Positions 2,997 through 42,565 of a stretch of DNA of 43,468 nt are shown here, one piece after another. The position numbers were made by a program, and so were the translations under genes. The stretch spans positions 1-43,468 of the forward strand of contig CALUML010000007.1 in the NCBI GenBank assembly GCA_944321745.1. Reading direction: 5' to 3'. The notes under the pieces were generated by a model. The model saw only the letters and a list, made by a program, of their open reading frames with translations, was not told the DNA's origin and did no database searches. Origin of the DNA: an uncultured Bacteroidales bacterium. Its GTDB lineage: Bacteria; Bacteroidota; Bacteroidia; Bacteroidales; Paludibacteraceae. Position 1 is the first letter of the stretch; each line of letters opens with the position of its first letter.

Positions 2997-3117
2997 AAAC
3001 AATGGACAATGAACAATGAACAATTGGCGGCACGTTCCTTTTTCTTGTCGCTAATTGTTCACTGTCCATTGTTCATTGTCCATTGTTCATTGTTCATTGT
3101 TCACTGTTCATTGTATT
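2997..3117. repeat. Inverted arrays of a GTTCATT-type short repeat
   Basis: A short array of (ACAATGA)-type units at 2997-3025 faces an inverse array of GTTCATT/GTCCATT units at 3053-3117 across about 27 bp. The arms can pair from AATTGTTC outward and form a long imperfect hairpin between galE and manA. The right array runs to the manA start codon, so it would sit in the leader of that message. Confidence 0.85.
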
Positions 3118-3118
3118 C

Positions 3119-4096
3119 ATGCTTTATCCCTTGAAATTTTCCCCCATCTTGAAAGACAAGATATGGGGCGGTACGAAATTGAAAACCTTGTTCAACAAGC
3201 CAGCCACGTCCGACCACCTCGGCGAAAGCTGGGAACTGTCCGGCTACGAAGGCGACGAGTCTGTGGTGACCAACGGCTTCCTGGCAGGCAACAACCTGGC
3301 CGAACTGCTCGAAGTGTACATGGGCGACCTGGTGGGCGACCGGGTGTTCGAACGCTACGGGCACACCTTCCCCCTGCTGTTCAAGCTCATTGACGCGAAC
3401 GACAACCTCTCCATCCAGGTGCATCCGAACGACGAGACGGCCCGGGCACGCCACGACTCCCTGGGCAAGACCGAGATGTGGTACGTGGTGGATGCCGACC
3501 CGGGTGCCGAGCTGATCATCGGCTTCGCGCACGACTCGTCCAAGGAAGAATACAGCCAGGCCGTGGAGCGCGGCGAAGTGGAACGACTCCTGCAACACGT
3601 GCCGGTGCAGCGCGGCGACGTGTTCTTCATCCCCGCCGGGCTGGTGCATGCCATCGGGCGCGGTGTGGTGGTGGCCGAGATACAGGAGTCCAGCGACATT
3701 ACCTACCGCATCTACGATTACAAGCGCAAGGATGCCAACGGCCACGAACGCGAACTGCACGTGGCGCAGGCACTCGACGTGATTGACTTCGCCGCCAGCA
3801 CGCGCCCCAAAACTCCCTACGAACCTCGGCTCAACGAACCGGTGACGCTGGTGTCATGCGACTACTTTACCACCAACTCCCTGCGCTTCGACCGCGAAGT
3901 GGTGCGCGATTACGCCCCCATCGACTCCTTTGTGGCCTACATGTGCCTCGAAGGCGCGTTCGACATCGTGTGTGAAGGGGAGAAAACGCCGGTGCAGCGG
4001 GGCGAAACCGTCCTCGTGCCCGCCGCCATCAACGAGGTGAAGCTCGTGCCCTCGCAGCCCAGCGCCCTGCTCGAAGTGTACGTGCAGGCGAAGTGA
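3119..4096 (+). CDS. manA: Mannose-6-phosphate isomerase, class I
   Basis: 325 residues. The start at 3119 (MLYPLKFSPILKDKIWGG) is preferred over an in-frame ATG at 3083, because the extra residues would come from the upstream repeat. Zinc ligands are visible: Gln100 and His102 in IQVHPND, Glu119 in TEMWYV and His177 in GLVHAIG. IWGG near the N-terminus and the cupin-like C-terminal half fit the type I family. It interconverts mannose-6-phosphate and fructose-6-phosphate in the cytoplasm, feeding GDP-mannose/fucose synthesis or mannose use. It follows galE but is separated from it by a repeat-rich spacer, so co-transcription is possible but not certain. Confidence 0.93.
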   Translation: MLYPLKFSPILKDKIWGGTKLKTLFNKPATSDHLGESWELSGYEGDESVVTNGFLAGNNLAELLEVYMGDLVGDRVFERYGHTFPLLFKLIDANDNLSIQVHPNDETARARHDSLGKTEMWYVVDADPGAELIIGFAHDSSKEEYSQAVERGEVERLLQHVPVQRGDVFFIPAGLVHAIGRGVVVAEIQESSDITYRIYDYKRKDANGHERELHVAQALDVIDFAASTRPKTPYEPRLNEPVTLVSCDYFTTNSLRFDREVVRDYAPIDSFVAYMCLEGAFDIVCEGEKTPVQRGETVLVPAAINEVKLVPSQPSALLEVYVQAK

Positions 4097-15063: not shown

Positions 15064-15232
15064 GAAGGAGAGGCGGGATGTGTTTAAATATATTTAACCA
15101 TCCTCCCTTTCGCACCTTTTCTTTGGCATGATACTTGCAAGGGCGGATGGCCTTTTCGGCAGGGGATGCCCGGTTGGATATGGATTGACCTTAATGCGTT
15201 GATTATTATCCCATATATATGGATAGTACAAA

Positions 15233-15420
15233 GGTTCGTACCCCTTTGGGCAAAAGGGTACGACCCCTTTGGGCAAAAGGGTACGACCCCTTTAGGCAAA
15301 AGGGTACGACCCCTTTAGGCAAAAGGTTCATACCCCTTTGGGCAAAAGGGTACGACCCCTTTGGGCAAAAGGGTACGACCCCTTTAGGCAAAGGATTCAT
15401 ACTCCTTTGGGCAAAAGGGT
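15233..15420. repeat. Minisatellite: eight tandem 23-bp units plus a partial ninth
   Basis: The unit is GGGTACGACCCCTTT(G/A)GGCAAAA. Unit boundaries fall exactly every 23 bp: 15233, 15256, 15279, 15302, 15325, 15348, 15371 and 15394. A second variant (GGTTCATACCCC or GGTTCGTACCCC) appears at units 1, 5 and, diverged, 8. Each unit contains an imperfect palindrome (ACCCCTTT facing AAAAGGGT). There are no unique spacers, so it is not a CRISPR array. Confidence 0.95.
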
Positions 15421-15750
15421 CATGCCCGCTGTTTATAAGGGAGAGGGGGGGGTGGCGTGATGATAAAGGCAGGTGAGTAGCTGTTGTGCGGGAGTACACT
15501 TCGCTTATGGCTTTGCATAAGCAAAGTTACATGAAAAAGATGACATTTGCAAACATGGATACTGGCATGTGTTAATATTACATAAAAAATATCCGTCATT
15601 CTCCTGTAGCAGGATTCGTCAAGGCATGTCCAAATAAGAACGGACATGGGTTTGACGGATAACCACGGATGGAGATGCACCCTCCGCAACGTGCCCGCCG
15701 AAAAAACAGGGAAATACAGCAAACAGGGTCGTACAGAATCTGCGGTCTGT

Positions 15751-15845: not shown

Positions 15846-17657
15846 ATGAACTATACATTCTTTGATTTCCTTGCCCTTGTCGGCTCGCTGGGTCTGTTCC
15901 TGTACGGGATGAAGATTATGAGCGAAGGGCTGCAGAAGATGGCGGGCAACCGCTTGCGTTCCATCCTCACGGCCATGACCAAGAACCGGGTGACGGGCGT
16001 GCTCACGGGGCTGCTCATCACGGCACTCATCCAGTCGTCGAGTGCCACCACGGTGATGGTGGTGAGCTTCGTCAACGCGGGGCTGCTCACGCTGGTGCAG
16101 TCCATCACGGTCATCATGGGGGCCAACATCGGGACCACGGTCACGGCGTGGCTCATCTCGCTGCTGGGCTTTTCGGTGAGCATCGTCGATTTCTCCGTGC
16201 CCCTCATGGCGGTGGCCATACCGTTTATCTTTTCGAGCAAGAGCAAGCGCAAATCTCTGGGTGAGTTCATCATGGGGTTTGCGCTTTTGTTTATCGGGCT
16301 GGACTGGCTGAAGAACTCCATGCCCGACTTGCAGAGCAACCCAGACATGCTGGCCTTCCTGTCGCGCTACACGGACCTGGGCTTCGGGTCGGTGCTTATT
16401 TTCCTGGGCGTGGGCACGCTGATGACGGTCATCGTGCAGTCGTCGAGTGCCACGATGGCCATCACGCTGGTGATGTGTGCCAAGGGCTGGATACCGTTCG
16501 AACTGGGGGCGGCCATGGTGCTGGGCGAGAACATCGGCACCACCATCACGGCCAACATTGCGGCCATCCCGGCGAACATCTCGGCCAAACGGGCGGCGTT
16601 GTCGCACCTGGTGTTCAACGTGTTCGGCGTCATCTGGATGCTGGTGGTGTTCTATCCTTTCACGGGATTGATATCGCACCTGGTGGAAACCATCGGCCCG
16701 GGCGACCCCAACCAGCTCACGGCGTTCACCTCGTCGCTCGACCCGGCCACGCTGAGTGCCATATCGGCTCCCACCGGCGAGGGGCTGACGCCGGACCAGC
16801 TGGCCCTGAAGGACCAGTTCCTGCAATACCAGCTGGCCACGTCATACGGGCTGTCGCTCTTCCATACCATGTTCAACATCATCAATACGTGCGTCATGGT
16901 ATGGTTCGTGAAGACCATCGCCCGCACGGTGTCCGTCCTCATCCCGCAGAAGGAGTCGGACGAGGAATTCCAATTGAAATACATCTCCACGGGGATGCTC
17001 TCCACTTCGGAACTGTCGCTGCTTCAGGCACGCAAGGAAATCGTGGTGTACAGCGAACGCACGGAACGCATGTTCCACCTGGTGCGCGACTTGTACAGGG
17101 AGACGAACGAGAACGAGTTCGTGAAGCTGTTCAGCCGCATTGAGAAGTATGAGAACATCAGCGATCGCATGGAGGTGGAAATAGCCGGATACCTCACCAA
17201 GGTGGCCGAAGGACGCCTGAGCGAGAACGGCAAGCACCGCCTGCAAGCCATGCTGCGCGTGGTGTCCGAAATAGAAAGCGTGGGCGACAGCTGCTTCAAC
17301 CTGGCACGCACCATCATGCGCAAGCGCGATGACAAGGCGGGCTACACGAAGGAGATGGACGACAACGTGCAGCTGATGTTCAACCTCATGGAGGAAGCCT
17401 TGGCCTCGATGAAGAAGCAGCTCATGGCCGAACAGCAGGAACCGCATTCGGACGAGTTCAACCGCTCGGAAAACATCGAGAACGAAATCAACAACTTCCG
17501 CAACCAGCTCAAGATGCAGAACCTGAACGACGTGAAGGAACAGAAATACGGCTACCAGGCCAGCGTCACCTACATGGATATGATTAACGAGTGCGAAAAG
17601 ATGGGCGACTACATCATCAACGTGGTCGAAGCGCTGGACGAGGAGTATTATAATTAG
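15846..17657 (+). CDS. Na+/phosphate cotransporter family protein with C-terminal PhoU-like domain
   Basis: 603 residues. The N-terminal half (1-360) is membranous and has two inverted family repeats, marked by QSSSATT at 63-69 and QSSSATM at 198-204, with GANIGTT and GENIGTT after them. These are the signatures of the NptA/SLC34-type sodium-phosphate symporters. Residues about 375-600 are helical and charged and match the PhoU-like domain often fused to bacterial members. It should import phosphate with sodium across the inner membrane, with the PhoU part possibly gating it. It has its own promoter and is followed by a repeat array. Substrate is inferred from the family. Confidence 0.92.
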   Translation: MNYTFFDFLALVGSLGLFLYGMKIMSEGLQKMAGNRLRSILTAMTKNRVTGVLTGLLITALIQSSSATTVMVVSFVNAGLLTLVQSITVIMGANIGTTVTAWLISLLGFSVSIVDFSVPLMAVAIPFIFSSKSKRKSLGEFIMGFALLFIGLDWLKNSMPDLQSNPDMLAFLSRYTDLGFGSVLIFLGVGTLMTVIVQSSSATMAITLVMCAKGWIPFELGAAMVLGENIGTTITANIAAIPANISAKRAALSHLVFNVFGVIWMLVVFYPFTGLISHLVETIGPGDPNQLTAFTSSLDPATLSAISAPTGEGLTPDQLALKDQFLQYQLATSYGLSLFHTMFNIINTCVMVWFVKTIARTVSVLIPQKESDEEFQLKYISTGMLSTSELSLLQARKEIVVYSERTERMFHLVRDLYRETNENEFVKLFSRIEKYENISDRMEVEIAGYLTKVAEGRLSENGKHRLQAMLRVVSEIESVGDSCFNLARTIMRKRDDKAGYTKEMDDNVQLMFNLMEEALASMKKQLMAEQQEPHSDEFNRSENIENEINNFRNQLKMQNLNDVKEQKYGYQASVTYMDMINECEKMGDYIINVVEALDEEYYN

Positions 17658-17892
17658 CTACGAGCTACGAGTTACGGGTTACAAGCTACGAGGGCGCGGA
17701 AGCGCATAATCGCTTAATCGCTTAATCGCGGAAACGTTTCTGCGATTAGATGCCCGCAGATTACGCGGATTTCCGCAGAAGTCTCAGATGGTACGACTTG
17801 TAGCTCGTAACTGACTCGTAGCTTGTAGCTCGTAGCTCGTAGCTCGTAGCTCGTAGCTGACTTGTAGCTCGTAGCTTGTAGCTTGTAACTAA
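17655..17892. repeat. Inverted arrays of GTAGCTC-type short repeats between the Na/Pi gene and argD
   Basis: A left array of TACGAGC units (17655-17692) faces a longer right array of GTAGCTC/TTGTAGC units (about 17795-17890). The arms are complementary. The spacer holds an AATCGCTT triplet and a CCGCAGATTACGCGGAT word of the dispersed 30-bp family. The layout mirrors that of 2997-3117. Confidence 0.88.
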
Positions 17893-38318: not shown

Positions 38319-38326
38319 TATCTTTG
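38319..38326 (+). promoter_or_regulatory. -7 element of purL
   Basis: TATCTTTG matches TAnnTTTG, 48 nt upstream of the ATG at 38375. The 190-bp gap from 38184 is otherwise AT-rich with no gene. Confidence 0.6.
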
Positions 38327-38374
38327 CACCGCCAAAGTAACGTGATTATTTTGAACATAGAGAAAACATACCCC

Positions 38375-41300
38375 ATGATCCATTTCTTCCAAACTTCCGA
38401 ACGGCACATTTATGCCGTGCAGTCGGCCAACACGCTGGCCGATGGTGACATCCAGAAACTGACCTGGTTGTTCAGCGGTGCGCAACTGCTGCCCGAAACC
38501 TCCCTGCAAGGCACCTTCACAGGGCCGCGCCGCGAAATGATTACCCCGTGGAGCACGAATGCCGTCGAGATAACGCGCAACATGGGCATCGGGGGCATCA
38601 TGCGCATTGAGGAGTACGCTCCGGCTGCCGCCGACGCTGCCTTCGACCCCATGCTGCAACGCCGTTACGACGGGCTGGGGCAAGACCTCTTCACCATCGA
38701 CAAGCAGCCCGACCCCATCCTGCACATCAACGACATTGCCGCCTACAACGAGCAGGAAGGCCTCGCCCTGAGCCGGGAGGAAATAGACTACCTCAACGGC
38801 GTGAGCCAAAAGCTGGGGCGCAAGCTGACGGACAGCGAAGTGTTCGGCTTCTCGCAAGTGAACTCCGAGCACTGCCGCCACAAGATATTCGGGGGCAAGT
38901 TCGTCATCGACGGCGAGGAAAAGCCCGAATCGCTCTTCGCCCTCATCAAGAAAACCTCGGCCACGAACCCCAACAAGCTCGTGTCGGCCTACAAGGACAA
39001 CGTGGCGTTCAACGCGGGCCCAGTCATCGAGCAGTTTGCCCCCCGCCGGGGCGACACGTCGGACTTCTTCCGCACGAAACCCATCGAGTCCGTCATCTCC
39101 CTCAAGGCCGAAACGCACAACTTCCCCACCACGGTCGAACCCTTCAACGGCGCGGCCACTGGCACGGGCGGCGAGATACGCGACCGCCTCGGCGGCGGCA
39201 AGGCCAGCCTCCCCATTGCGGGCACGGCGGTCTACATGACCAGCTACCCCCGGCCTGCCCTACCGGCCTCCCCAAGCCCCTCCCAAGGAGGGGATGTGAG
39301 CAACCAAGGTAATCCCGAAGCCTCCCCCTTGGGGGGAGGTATGGAGGGGGCACGGATATGGGAACAGCACACCACGCCCCGCCCCTGGCTGTACCAGACG
39401 CCGGAACAAATCCTCATCAAGGCCTCGAACGGGGCGTCGGACTTCGGCAACAAGTTCGGCCAACCGCTCATCTGCGGTTCGCTCCTCACCTTCGAACACG
39501 AGGAAAACGGCAAGACCTACGGCTACGACAAGGTCATCATGCTGGCGGGCGGCGTGGGCTTCGCCAAGAAAGCCGATGCGCTGAAAGGCACGCCCGAACC
39601 GCATGAAAAGGTCGTGGTCATGGGCGGCGACAACTACCGCATCGGCATGGGCGGCGGTGCCGTGTCGTCGGTCGACACGGGGCAGTACGCCAATGCCATC
39701 GAACTGAACGCCGTGCAACGCGCCAACCCCGAAATGCAGAAGCGCGTGGCCAACGTCATCCGCACGCTGGCCGAAAGCGACGACAACCCCATCGTGTCCA
39801 TCCACGACCACGGCGCGGGCGGCCACCTCAACTGCCTCTCCGAGCTGGTCGAAACCACCGGCGGGCGCATCGACATGTCGCAGCTGCCCATCGGCGACCC
39901 CACCCTGAGCGCGAAGGAAATCATCGGCAACGAAAGCCAGGAACGCATGGGCTTCCTGCTCCGCGAACAGGACGTGGAACGGGTGCGCCGCCTGGCCGAA
40001 CGCGAACGCGCCCCCATGTACGTGGTGGGCGAAACCACCGGCGACATGCAGTTTGTGTTTACTTGCCCCCCCACCCCCCAAAGGGGGGATTCCCAAACTA
40101 CGCCAGGATACCATACCTCCAACAAAGCCAATTATCATCTGCTGGCGGAACATGCCAAAGACATGAAGCGTTTCTCTACGGAGGCTGAAAGCTGCTTGTG
40201 GGAAATGCTGAGAAAGAAGAACCTTGGGGATAAGTTCAGAAGGCAACATGTAATTGATGACTTTATTGTTGACTTCGTCTGCCTGCCCAAGAAATTGGTA
40301 ATCGAAGTTGATGGTCAATACCACAACGAGCCTGAAATGGTTGAAGCGGACAAGCAACGTACCGAAGTACTGGAAAGTTTGGGTTACAGAGTACTTCGAT
40401 TCACCAACGAAGAAGTTCTGGCCAACACGGACGCTGTATTGCAAACGATACAAACGGAACTAACTCAAACACCCCCTCCTTCGGAGGGGCTTGGGGAGGC
40501 TATCAACATGCAGCTGAGCGACTTCTTCGGCAATCCGCCACGCACCGTCATTACCGACCACACGGTGCCCGAACACTTTGCCGCCGTGCAGGTCGATGAA
40601 GAAAAGCTGCTGGACTACCTGCGCCAGGTGTTGCAAGTGGAATCCGTGGCCTGCAAGGACTGGCTCACCAACAAGGTGGACCGCTCGGTAACGGGCAAGA
40701 TAGCCCGCCAGCAATGCGTGGGCGAAATACAGTTGCCGCTGGCCGACCTCGGCGCGGTGGCGCTCGACTACCGCGGACGCAGCGGCATTGCCACCTCCAT
40801 AGGGCATGCGCCCCTCGTGGCCTTGGCCGACCCCGCCGCCGGTTCGGTCATGGCGGTGGCCGAAGCCCTCACCAACATCGTGTGGGCACCCTTGGCCGAC
40901 GGCCTGCGCAGCGTGTCGCTCAGTGCCAACTGGATGTGGCCGTGCAAGAACCCCGGCGAAGACGCCCGCCTCTACCGGGCCGTGGAAGCGTGCAGCGACT
41001 TTGCCTGCGCCTTGGGCATCAACATACCCACCGGCAAGGACAGCCTCTCCATGACACAGAAGTACGGGGAAAAGAAGGTGTTCTCGCCCGGCACGGTCAT
41101 CATTTCCGCCGGGGCGGAAGTGGCCGACGTTACCCGAATCGTCACCCCCGACCTGAAGGACGTGCCCGACTCGTACATCTACTACATCGACTTCTCGTTC
41201 GATGCCCATAAGCTGGGCGGCTCGGTGCTGGTGCAAGTGCTGGGACGCATTGGCGACGAAGTGCCCACCGTGCGCGACGCGGAATACTTCGCGGAGGCCT

Positions 41301-42565
41301 TCAACGCCCTGCAGGAACTCATCGGCAAAGGGCTGGTATTGGCGGGACACGACATTTCCGAAGGCGGCCTCATCACCGCCCTGCTTGAAATGTGCTTCCC
41401 CAACACCAAGGGCGGCCTGCGCGTGAAGCTGGACGACCTGGCCGAACACTCCCTGCTGCACATCCTCTTTGCCGAAAACCCCGGCGTGCTCATTCAGGTG
41501 AAGAACCACAAGGCGGTGGAACGGATTCTCATGGAGCATGAAATCGGCTTTGCCCGCATAGCGCAGCCCATAGCCGAACGCCGCCTCGAAGTGCACAAGA
41601 AGAAAACGGCCTATGCTTTCGCTATCGATGAGTTGCGCGACCTGTGGTACCGCTCGTCCTACCTGCTCGACCGCCGCCAAAGTGGCGAGCAGTGTGCCGC
41701 CGCCCGCTACGCCAACTACAAGGAACAACCGTTGGAATTCAAATATGCCGACACGTTCCGGGGCAAGCTGTCGCAGTTCGGCCTCTCGCCCGACCGCCAG
41801 CCGAGCGGCGTGCGTGCCGCCATTATCCGCGAGCAGGGCACGAATGGTGAACGCGAAATGGCCTACGCGCTCTATCTCGCAGGCTTCGACGTGAAGGACG
41901 TGCACATGACCGACCTCGTTTCGGGCCGCGAGACATTGGATGACGTAAACATGATTGTGTTCTGTGGCGGGTTTGCCAACTCCGACGTGCTCGGCTCGGC
42001 CAAGGGGTGGGCAGGCAGCTTCCTCTACAACGAAAAGGCCAAAGCCGCCCTCGACCGCTTCTATGCCCGTCCCGACACGCTCAGCCTCGGCATTTGCAAC
42101 GGTTGCCAGCTCATGGTGGAACTGGGTCTGGTAACGCCCGACCACGACGTGAAGCCGTGCATGCTGCACAACGATTCGCACAAGTTCGAGTCTGAGTTTG
42201 TCACGCTCGCCATACCCGACAACCATTCCGTCATGTTCGGCTCGCTCGCGGGCAACAAGCTCGGCATTTGGGTGGCGCACGGCGAAGGCAAGTTCCGCCT
42301 GCCGAAGGAGGAAAGCGCGTACCACATTGTGGCCAAATACAACCACAGCGGCTATCCCGCCAACCCCAACGGGTCGGACTACGACGTGGCGGGCATCTGC
42401 TCGACCGACGGACGCCACCTGGCTATGATGCCGCACCTGGAACGCGCCATCTTCCCTTGGCAATGCGCCCACTATCCCGCCGACCGCCGCAACAGCGACC
42501 AAATCACCCCGTGGATGGAGGCCTTCGTCAACGCCCGCCGCTGGGTGGAACGGAACAGGAAGTAA
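38375..42565 (+). CDS. purL: Phosphoribosylformylglycinamidine synthase with two in-frame insertions
   Basis: 1396 residues from the ATG at 38375 (MIHFFQTSERHIYAV). It makes FGAM from FGAR, glutamine and ATP in purine synthesis. Synthetase halves are present (VNSEHCRHKIF, HDHGAGGHLNCLSEL, KDWLTNKVDRSVTGKIARQQ). The glutaminase domain has nucleophile Cys1241 in GICNGCQLM and the catalytic His/Glu in VAHGEGKF. From memory, Bacteroides relatives have about 1230-1240 residues. The excess is in residues about 294-323 (PALPASPSPSQGGD to GGGME, low complexity) and about 563-709 (a DUF559-like domain). Neither breaks the frame and no core motif is lost. The first follows VYMTSYPR; the second replaces or interrupts the linker before MQLSDFFGNPP. 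The enzyme may therefore still work. It stands alone with its own promoter and terminator. Confidence 0.95.
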   Translation: MIHFFQTSERHIYAVQSANTLADGDIQKLTWLFSGAQLLPETSLQGTFTGPRREMITPWSTNAVEITRNMGIGGIMRIEEYAPAAADAAFDPMLQRRYDGLGQDLFTIDKQPDPILHINDIAAYNEQEGLALSREEIDYLNGVSQKLGRKLTDSEVFGFSQVNSEHCRHKIFGGKFVIDGEEKPESLFALIKKTSATNPNKLVSAYKDNVAFNAGPVIEQFAPRRGDTSDFFRTKPIESVISLKAETHNFPTTVEPFNGAATGTGGEIRDRLGGGKASLPIAGTAVYMTSYPRPALPASPSPSQGGDVSNQGNPEASPLGGGMEGARIWEQHTTPRPWLYQTPEQILIKASNGASDFGNKFGQPLICGSLLTFEHEENGKTYGYDKVIMLAGGVGFAKKADALKGTPEPHEKVVVMGGDNYRIGMGGGAVSSVDTGQYANAIELNAVQRANPEMQKRVANVIRTLAESDDNPIVSIHDHGAGGHLNCLSELVETTGGRIDMSQLPIGDPTLSAKEIIGNESQERMGFLLREQDVERVRRLAERERAPMYVVGETTGDMQFVFTCPPTPQRGDSQTTPGYHTSNKANYHLLAEHAKDMKRFSTEAESCLWEMLRKKNLGDKFRRQHVIDDFIVDFVCLPKKLVIEVDGQYHNEPEMVEADKQRTEVLESLGYRVLRFTNEEVLANTDAVLQTIQTELTQTPPPSEGLGEAINMQLSDFFGNPPRTVITDHTVPEHFAAVQVDEEKLLDYLRQVLQVESVACKDWLTNKVDRSVTGKIARQQCVGEIQLPLADLGAVALDYRGRSGIATSIGHAPLVALADPAAGSVMAVAEALTNIVWAPLADGLRSVSLSANWMWPCKNPGEDARLYRAVEACSDFACALGINIPTGKDSLSMTQKYGEKKVFSPGTVIISAGAEVADVTRIVTPDLKDVPDSYIYYIDFSFDAHKLGGSVLVQVLGRIGDEVPTVRDAEYFAEAFNALQELIGKGLVLAGHDISEGGLITALLEMCFPNTKGGLRVKLDDLAEHSLLHILFAENPGVLIQVKNHKAVERILMEHEIGFARIAQPIAERRLEVHKKKTAYAFAIDELRDLWYRSSYLLDRRQSGEQCAAARYANYKEQPLEFKYADTFRGKLSQFGLSPDRQPSGVRAAIIREQGTNGEREMAYALYLAGFDVKDVHMTDLVSGRETLDDVNMIVFCGGFANSDVLGSAKGWAGSFLYNEKAKAALDRFYARPDTLSLGICNGCQLMVELGLVTPDHDVKPCMLHNDSHKFESEFVTLAIPDNHSVMFGSLAGNKLGIWVAHGEGKFRLPKEESAYHIVAKYNHSGYPANPNGSDYDVAGICSTDGRHLAMMPHLERAIFPWQCAHYPADRRNSDQITPWMEAFVNARRWVERNRK
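39254..39349 (-). repeat. Short palindromic element inserted in frame in purL
   Basis: A segment of about 90-96 bp with a hairpin at each end: CCCCTCC-caa-GGAGGGG (39277-39293) and CCTCCCCC-ttg-GGGGGAGG (39321-39339). The complement of 39266-39293 matches 40473-40500 at 27 of 28 bases. The other end resembles the left end of the 40061 element. It lies in the opposite orientation to that element and has only about 27 bp between hairpins, with no ORF of its own. Exact borders are uncertain by several bases. Confidence 0.82.
40061..40501 (+). mobile_element. In-frame element in purL encoding a DUF559-like endonuclease domain
   Basis: About 440 bp, clearly less GC-rich than purL. It is bounded by CCCCCC-aaa-GGGGGG (40074-40088) on the left and CCCCTCC-ttc-GGAGGGG (40473-40489) on the right. 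It translates in the purL frame. PurL residues 585-697 have the DUF559 pattern: YHLLAEHAKDMKRF, TEAESCLWEMLRKKNLG, FRRQHVIDDFIVDFVC, LVIEVDGQYH, DKQRTEVLESLGYRVLRF and NEEVL. Asp633 and the Glu644/Asp646 pair fit a PD-(D/E)XK or Vsr-like nuclease core. The domain is complete, so it may be active. Internal ATG codons (residue 597) would allow a separate product, but none is needed. Borders are approximate. Confidence 0.85.

Follow-up and report, generated by a model that had tools for sequence, protein, structure and literature searches.

The stretch of DNA analysed here, referred to as the window, comprises positions 1 to 43,468 of contig C7 (CALUML010000007.1) of a 2.66 Mb draft genome from an uncultured Bacteroidales bacterium of the family Paludibacteraceae (207 contigs, 89% complete; labelled G000). 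Towards its right end lies purL, in a frame that runs uninterrupted from 38324 to 42565 and codes for 1413 residues from a possible TTG start at 38324, or 1396 from the ATG at 38375. A Pfam scan of this frame returned the domains of the FGAR amidotransferase and, at residues 608-713, a match to PF04480 (DUF559, E 2.1e-34), confirming the claim of the initial annotation that a complete DUF559 nuclease domain sits in frame inside purL. As had also been proposed, the element is placed between domains of the host: it occupies a short turn that separates the AIRS_C match, ending at residue 575, from the FGAR-AT PurM_N-like domain. Its base composition is likewise unlike that of the host gene, with 44.8% GC in the DUF559 stretch (40112-40468), compared to a minimum of 58.5% and a mean of 62.8% in 1092 overlapping purL host windows of the same length. 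No sign of a broken purL was seen. The frame contains no stop, purL is single-copy in G000 and five relatives (one match to PF22689 in each of the 6 genomes), and the frames of the 44 long-frame relatives described below are open as well. Coordinates are collected in Table 1.

Table 1. Features of the purL region of the window.
Feature	Position	Strand	Remarks
purL (FGAR amidotransferase) with two in-frame inserts	38375..42565	+	Pfam; 1396 aa from ATG
Nuclease-free double-palindrome insert, in frame in purL (MITE-like derivative)	39266..39351	+	fold z -1.87; 9/200 shuffles as good
DUF559 element, in frame, palindrome to palindrome, 436 nt	40065..40500	+	absent in same-genus G058, G076
Left end: outer C-rich tail and palindrome (arms 40074-40079 / 40083-40088)	40065..40091	+	identical 27 nt in G031 purL locus
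DUF559 / PD-(D/E)XK Vsr-like nuclease domain	40145..40462	+	PF04480 E 5.7e-36; structural match to I-Bth0305I
Right end: palindrome (arms 40473-40479 / 40483-40489) and tail CTTGGGGAGGC	40473..40500	+	motif 17x in genome
Related C-rich palindrome, intergenic, just 3' of purL stop codon	42568..42591	+	weak: 58/200 shuffles fold as well

The initial annotation had described GC-rich hairpins at the borders of the element. GC-rich palindromes are present there, but as single strands they show no folding beyond that of dinucleotide shuffles (equalled by 75 of 200 for the left end and by 27 of 200 for the right), and they form no significant mutual inverted repeat, their score of 22 being equal to the best of 100 shuffles and below that of a far-flank control (24). 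The two ends belong to different subtypes. The search of the genome with the 28-bp right end that had been suggested yielded 17 copies of the motif, and 0 with the reversed control, so that palindromic borders do occur elsewhere. Two copies are inside purL, and 8 of the 15 others fall in frames longer than 400 aa. Seven of these eight frames were empty in Pfam (E<=0.001) and were for this reason treated as chance frames; 4Fe-4S domains were found in the remaining one (L017, contig C116 of G000). At position 1501 of L017, the motif is a nuclease-free palindrome, apparently in frame in the 4Fe-4S-domain gene.

A second purL insert, at 39266-39351, was missing from the initial annotation. Over 28 nt, it is a 96% match to the right end of the DUF559 element of the window. 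It lies in a loop of PurL, SYPR...W (window 39253-39356), which is variable among relatives, palindrome-like extensions being visible by eye in G076, G031, G061, G039 and G024. We concluded that this loop is a hot spot of loop extension, with various in-frame palindrome inserts across family genomes. The loop palindrome of G031 matched the two ends of the DUF559 element located in metH of the same genome, with 95% identity over 41 nt for one end and 95% over 37 nt for the other. Short palindromes and nuclease-bearing elements therefore share end sequences, as far as short, GC-rich matches can tell.

Other repeats are found in the window. A 23-nt unit with an inner palindrome (AAAGGGTACGACCCCTTTGGGCA) forms an array of about 8-10 copies at 15207-15436, arrays of AGCTACGAGCTACGAG-type repeats in inverted orientation occupy 17656-17890, and ATTGTTCACTG arrays similar to the latter are located at 2998-3124. 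Downstream of purL, a frame ending near the contig end (42777-43394) has a Walker-A-like motif, GKWGSGKTT, and is perhaps that of a KAP-type P-loop NTPase.

PurL was matched in 132 of 150 genomes of the same family, and its turn was readable in 20 of the 30 loci fetched, 4 filled and 16 empty. Filled turns belong to G000 and G031, from the same genus, and to G093 and G139, from another genus. The turn was empty in G058 (GDMQFVFEQKDGTKPIDMQ) and G076 (GDMQFVFTKPDGEAPINMQ), of the same genus as G000; the insert is thus not shared by all close relatives, two of the four genomes sampled in this genus being filled and two empty. When present, it replaces the short turn between F and PI of PurL. For the G093/G139 pair, the insert had a dS of 0.69, and the host had values of 1.48 and 1.39. 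On the tree of DUF559 domains, the copies of the window and G031 group among valS copies (support 99/93), and those of G093 and G139 with spoIID copies (support 93/90). As the two purL groups sit in different clades, the purL turn has probably undergone two independent colonisations.

The census was then that of the family. PF04480 is present in 65 of the 150 same-family genomes, which hold 91 strong matches (E<=1e-17), 44 of them in frames of at least 400 aa, the length by which the in-gene set was chosen; 20 weaker matches, 13 of which are in frames of at least 400 aa, lie outside this set. All 44 long-frame copies are inside host genes, namely leuS (9), ileS (6), metH (6), valS (5), uvrA (4), purL (4), a degT-like aminotransferase gene (4), a spoIID-like gene (3), prmC (1), and methylase or restriction-modification genes (2). 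Host names were assigned by reading, with Pfam scans for the window and 10 representatives. A BLAST comparison against nine reference hosts bore out the name for the two halves of 33 further copies; the nine references match themselves, and none was available for the two methylase-gene copies. These two (L078 and L087) are counted among the 44; they form a separate long branch and probably represent another lineage.

Contigs were also searched for relatives in named organisms. Among the best 80 of at least 567 such relatives, all are Bacteroidota by title, 5 are copies already present in the family sample, and 69 are in frames of at least 290 aa, one of which (L185) has an internal stop, leaving 68 of the 80 open. 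Hosts of these 69 long-frame copies, still among the best 80 of at least 567, were assigned by BLAST or reading and were leuS (20), ileS (12), recG (11), valS (10), addA-like genes (4) and others (twelve). Named isolates also carry in-gene inserts of this kind, among them Tenacibaculum gallaicum DSM 18841 and Flavobacterium glaciei DSM 19728. Pfam confirmed RecG, a UvrD-like helicase, urocanase, a poly(A)-polymerase/CCA-type nucleotidyltransferase, GH31, two epimerase-type proteins and MazG as further hosts, as well as fusions in which DUF559 stands ahead of a SpoU methylase, IspF (YgbB) or RNase H. This brings the host kinds confirmed by Pfam to 22, some of them related, IleRS being separated from its relatives by reading alone. 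Across the phylum, 126 of the 296 genomes sampled had a DUF559 match at E<=1e-10. Relatives were also found in phages (2 records, 37-41% identity) and plasmids (31 records, all below 60% identity).

Within a given host, insertions fall in the same short region: 5/5 in valS, 9/9 in leuS, 6/6 in metH, 4/4 in purL, 4/4 in degT, 4/4 in uvrA and 3/3 in spoIID. Three regions were found in ileS (4, 1 and 1 copies). In valS (5/5), leuS (9/9) and one ileS, the palindrome-coded stretch ends about 12 residues or less from ATTRPET, FTTRP/ADT or WTTTPWT, motifs which we take to mark the editing-domain entry of these related synthetases. In recG, the insert ends a few residues before PPHVLVMTATP. Permissive turns of this kind, beside deeply conserved coding DNA, are the sites that a homing endonuclease would be expected to use. 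None of 29 short-frame copies (18 of the 47 from the family, and 11 named ones) was flanked on both sides by one of the nine reference hosts, so no out-of-frame interruption was found as far as these nine hosts are concerned.

Stand-alone copies deserve a separate mention. L100 (G075) groups with metH copies and is located just downstream of metH; it is possibly a relocated copy. Solo DUF559 frames of Prevotella/Bacteroidaceae (L190, L199, L200, L210 and L214) sit at, or right beside, the start of the following same-strand frame. Together with the spoU, ispF and RNase H fusions, solo copies at frame starts may possibly be insertions at gene starts. L104 (G034) and a short DUF559 at positions 4447-4767 of L065 make up a distinct intergenic lineage with long inverted repeats of its own.

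Family-wide, each element end consists of a palindrome and an outer tail. The left end compared with the reverse complement of the right end scored above the best of 100 mononucleotide shuffles in 39 of the 44 in-gene copies, the five copies without this signal being L049, L070, L076, L091 and that of the window. Intergenic DUF559 copies with inverted ends exist as well. Similarity between ends tracks nuclease identity across different genomes and hosts (rho 0.43, 966 pairs, 0 of 1000 permutations), in a test made on 48 of 62 copies (inverted-repeat score of at least 26, left end of 19-59 nt, methylase-gene copies left out), the window being outside this set. Among in-gene copies, end similarity was 0.36 within a genome, 0.35 between genomes and hosts, and 0.51 for the same host in a different genome. 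The ends vary along with the nuclease and not by genome, and therefore ends and nuclease travel together. Once translated, in frame with host and nuclease, the ends are the Pro/Gly-rich stretches that flank the nuclease domain, a composition that would suit flexible linkers.

The nuclease itself is under purifying selection. Of 18 pairs tried, 4 were synonymously saturated; dN/dS was 0.04-0.19 in 13 of the 14 computable pairs, several of which are near saturation, some sharing a copy and three being stand-alone pairs. The remaining pair, stand-alone and nearly identical, gave 0.52 on very few changes. Neither the 40 nor the 60 aligned copies vary at a core made of T, W, D-F, E-x-D-G, H, D and N. 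An AlphaFold model of the domain (pLDDT 85.7) was compared with known structures using Foldseek, and matched 3hrl (E 2.3e-6) and 3r3p, the catalytic domain of I-Bth0305I (E 2.5e-5, TM 0.77 on target), with E. coli Vsr further down (E 0.03). A profile search ranked the same two entries (3hrl, E 1.9e-29; 3r3p, E 3.7e-7). The alignment with 3r3p retains the E and the later D but has A in place of the D of DF, N in place of the D of ExDG, and W in place of the H, so that the two active sites may not be identical. Judged by profile and modelled fold, the DUF559 domain is homologous to a characterised homing endonuclease. A DUF559 protein of Caulobacter has been reported to be a Vsr-like PD-(D/E)XK endonuclease (PMC12907096). 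The AlphaFold model of the RecG chimera was poor (mean pLDDT 59) and was set aside.

A tree of 61 DUF559 domains, from which the partial copy L093 was left out, placed 42 in-gene and 4 solo copies in one clade (91/92, just below the starred level). Host labels required 16 changes on this tree, compared to 40.5 when shuffled (0 of 200 shuffles as low), and 23 compared to 70.6 on a wider quick tree of 102 domains. One recG lineage spans many genera, and a Lutibacter urocanase copy lies inside the recG clade. In G042, two ileS sites carry copies that are 96% identical over 433 nt.

The recG insert lent itself to an analysis of descent and transfer. It was found in 9 of 150 genomes of one genus. 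Of 21 empty recG loci read, 17 were clean and 4 had short in-frame residues resembling scars of the ends. A recG host tree with 41 rows requires 7 changes in presence, of which starred branches force at least 5, and shuffled labels need 14.0; presence is therefore patchy yet partly inherited, and much of the history of this insert is probably vertical. In three species pairs, the recG insert has moved between species without its flanks. The inserts of G502 and G438 differ at 3 of 453 nt, compared to 3-13% per 100 nt in the surrounding recG, and their synonymous differences are 0.01 in the insert and 0.31 in the flanks. For G532/G544 the corresponding values are 0.17 and 0.42, and for Tenacibaculum larymnensis/gallaicum, pS is 0.19 in the insert and 0.57 in the flanks; in each pair, 0 of 300 bootstraps reversed the order. 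Over 190 recG pairs, the insert was less diverged than the flanks in 100, significantly so in 12, and significantly more diverged in 7, which argues for recent transfer in some lineages and not for a general low rate.

Mobility and in-frame insertion are well supported by these results. The initial annotation had likened the insert to a homing endonuclease in strategy, with no splicing, and had seen in it a selfish element translated as part of its host protein; this view gains support, and movement driven by the nuclease is the part of it that we infer. In our opinion the best reading, and a probable one, is a homing cassette that dispenses with splicing and is translated through. The cassette would consist of a palindromic end, the DUF559 nuclease and a second palindromic end, and would be a member of a mobile family. 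Cassettes would enter permissive turns of housekeeping proteins in frame and be translated through as an extra domain, with no splicing of RNA or protein. The nuclease probably serves as a homing endonuclease: it would cut its own host-gene site in alleles that lack the insert, and the cassette would be copied in when the break is repaired on a filled allele. New lineages may occasionally be founded at another gene, as could be the case for the purL copy of the window, which groups with valS copies. Because the cassette sits in frame in a needed gene, sloppy deletion would be costly; losses would therefore be in frame, and some would leave short scars. Inserts made of palindromes alone would derive from cassettes by internal deletion or cross-mobilisation, and the palindromes may assist insertion or serve as linkers. 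What we infer beyond mobility is that the empty allele is cleaved, that the palindromes play such a part, and that the chimera is made and works.

Transposition through the ends is the main rival. The element would then be a small transposon, pasted by DUF559 or another enzyme by means of its palindromic ends; only in-frame insertions would survive selection, and recurrence at the same site would reflect an old insertion followed by vertical descent. Such a transposon would account for the inverted ends of 39 of the 44 in-gene copies and their co-variation with the nuclease, for the near-identical copies at the two ileS sites of G042, for nuclease-free palindromes with the same ends and intergenic copies with inverted ends, and for the clustering of presence on the recG tree. 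However, inserts that are closer than their flanks at the same site, in three species pairs, fit homing better, as does a single recG lineage over many genera, and no target-site duplication was seen by eye at the recG junctions, where the empty alleles compared came from other species. We regard this rival as unlikely to be the sole explanation, and note that homing for spread at the same site and rare transposition to new sites could both operate.

The strong purifying selection, and the long retention at some sites, would also be expected if DUF559 had been recruited as a useful extra domain, for nucleic-acid binding for example, with nothing selfish about it. A domain found in 22 host kinds, several of them unrelated, with a patchy presence and scar-like remnants, moving without its flanks and bounded by palindromic ends, makes such a recruitment very unlikely. 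A spliced element also comes to mind, either an intein or an intron that escaped recognition and is excised at the protein or mRNA level, since a homing-type nuclease in conserved genes is typical of both. Yet no splicing (Hint) domain was found in Pfam scans of 23 interrupted frames, that of the window included (E limits 0.01 to 1e-6), Rfam gave 0 matches at E<=1 over 39000-41500 and hence no intron RNA fold, and the ends are read in frame as Pro/Gly-rich stretches. The absence of splicing motifs noticed in the initial annotation is thereby upheld, and we give a spliced element a very slim chance. As to an assembly artefact or a pseudogene, which a draft genome in 207 contigs could lead one to suspect, the same arrangement at the same turn in G031, the similar inserts in named isolates and the lack of stops leave it a negligible probability.

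Homing endonucleases are generally tolerated because they are located in introns, inteins or between genes. The DUF559 cassettes are apparently tolerated as an extra translated domain of tRNA synthetases, RecG, UvrA, MetH and PurL. We see an even chance that they form a separate class of selfish element, a splice-free homing cassette embedded in proteins, whose palindromic ends double as codons of flexible Pro/Gly-rich linkers, making each element a protein domain that brings its own tolerance to insertion, and which spreads among essential genes across a phylum, undergoes cycles of gain, decay and in-frame scarring, and seeds nuclease-free palindromes that extend loops of host proteins. If true, this would be a testable case of selfish DNA directly reshaping essential proteins. 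It would explain odd insertions in many Bacteroidota enzymes, reveal a source of new loops and domain fusions, and provide many small nucleases together with their candidate natural targets.

A search of the open-access literature, by title and start of abstract, returned no description of such elements. Several known systems share part of their properties. Inteins with a homing endonuclease are in-frame, nuclease-bearing segments of essential proteins, near conserved motifs; here, in contrast, no splicing domain was found, and the product would stay chimeric. REPIN / RAYT systems comprise inverted pairs of palindromic repeats with nuclease-free derivatives, whereas here the enzyme is DUF559 and insertions are inside genes. 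A RAYT-driven REP was considered and rejected, as the Y1 transposase PF01797 gave 0 matches in G000 (89% complete). In fungal mitochondrial rps3, homing endonuclease genes of the LAGLIDADG type are found in frame, at the C-terminus, with no splicing. Common to both is a homing nuclease in a protein gene without splicing, but the present one is of the DUF559 type, and bacterial. As in homing elements, we found a fixed site across species together with empty alleles, and flank-independent spread in three recG species pairs.

The EDxHD enzyme I-Bth0305I (3r3p) shares with DUF559 a Vsr-like nuclease fold and residence at conserved host-gene sites. According to PMC3943268, EDxHD homing endonucleases are long proteins of several domains, encoded in group I introns and similar elements, whereas here a domain of about 110 residues, with three aligned core residues different, is translated within the host enzyme and has palindromic ends. 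Rickettsia palindromic elements are palindromes that lie in frame within many metabolic genes of unrelated kinds and are translated with them; they are about 150 bp long, and the passage on them in PMC10969869 speaks of a conserved peptide but of no nuclease. In-frame palindromic DNA in a coding gene is also what was found at 39266-39351 and 40065-40500, so that translated in-frame palindromes are common to both systems, to which a nuclease is added here, the comparison being one of descriptions only. The nearest precedents are Rickettsia palindromic elements for the in-frame translated palindromes, and EDxHD homing endonucleases for the nuclease.
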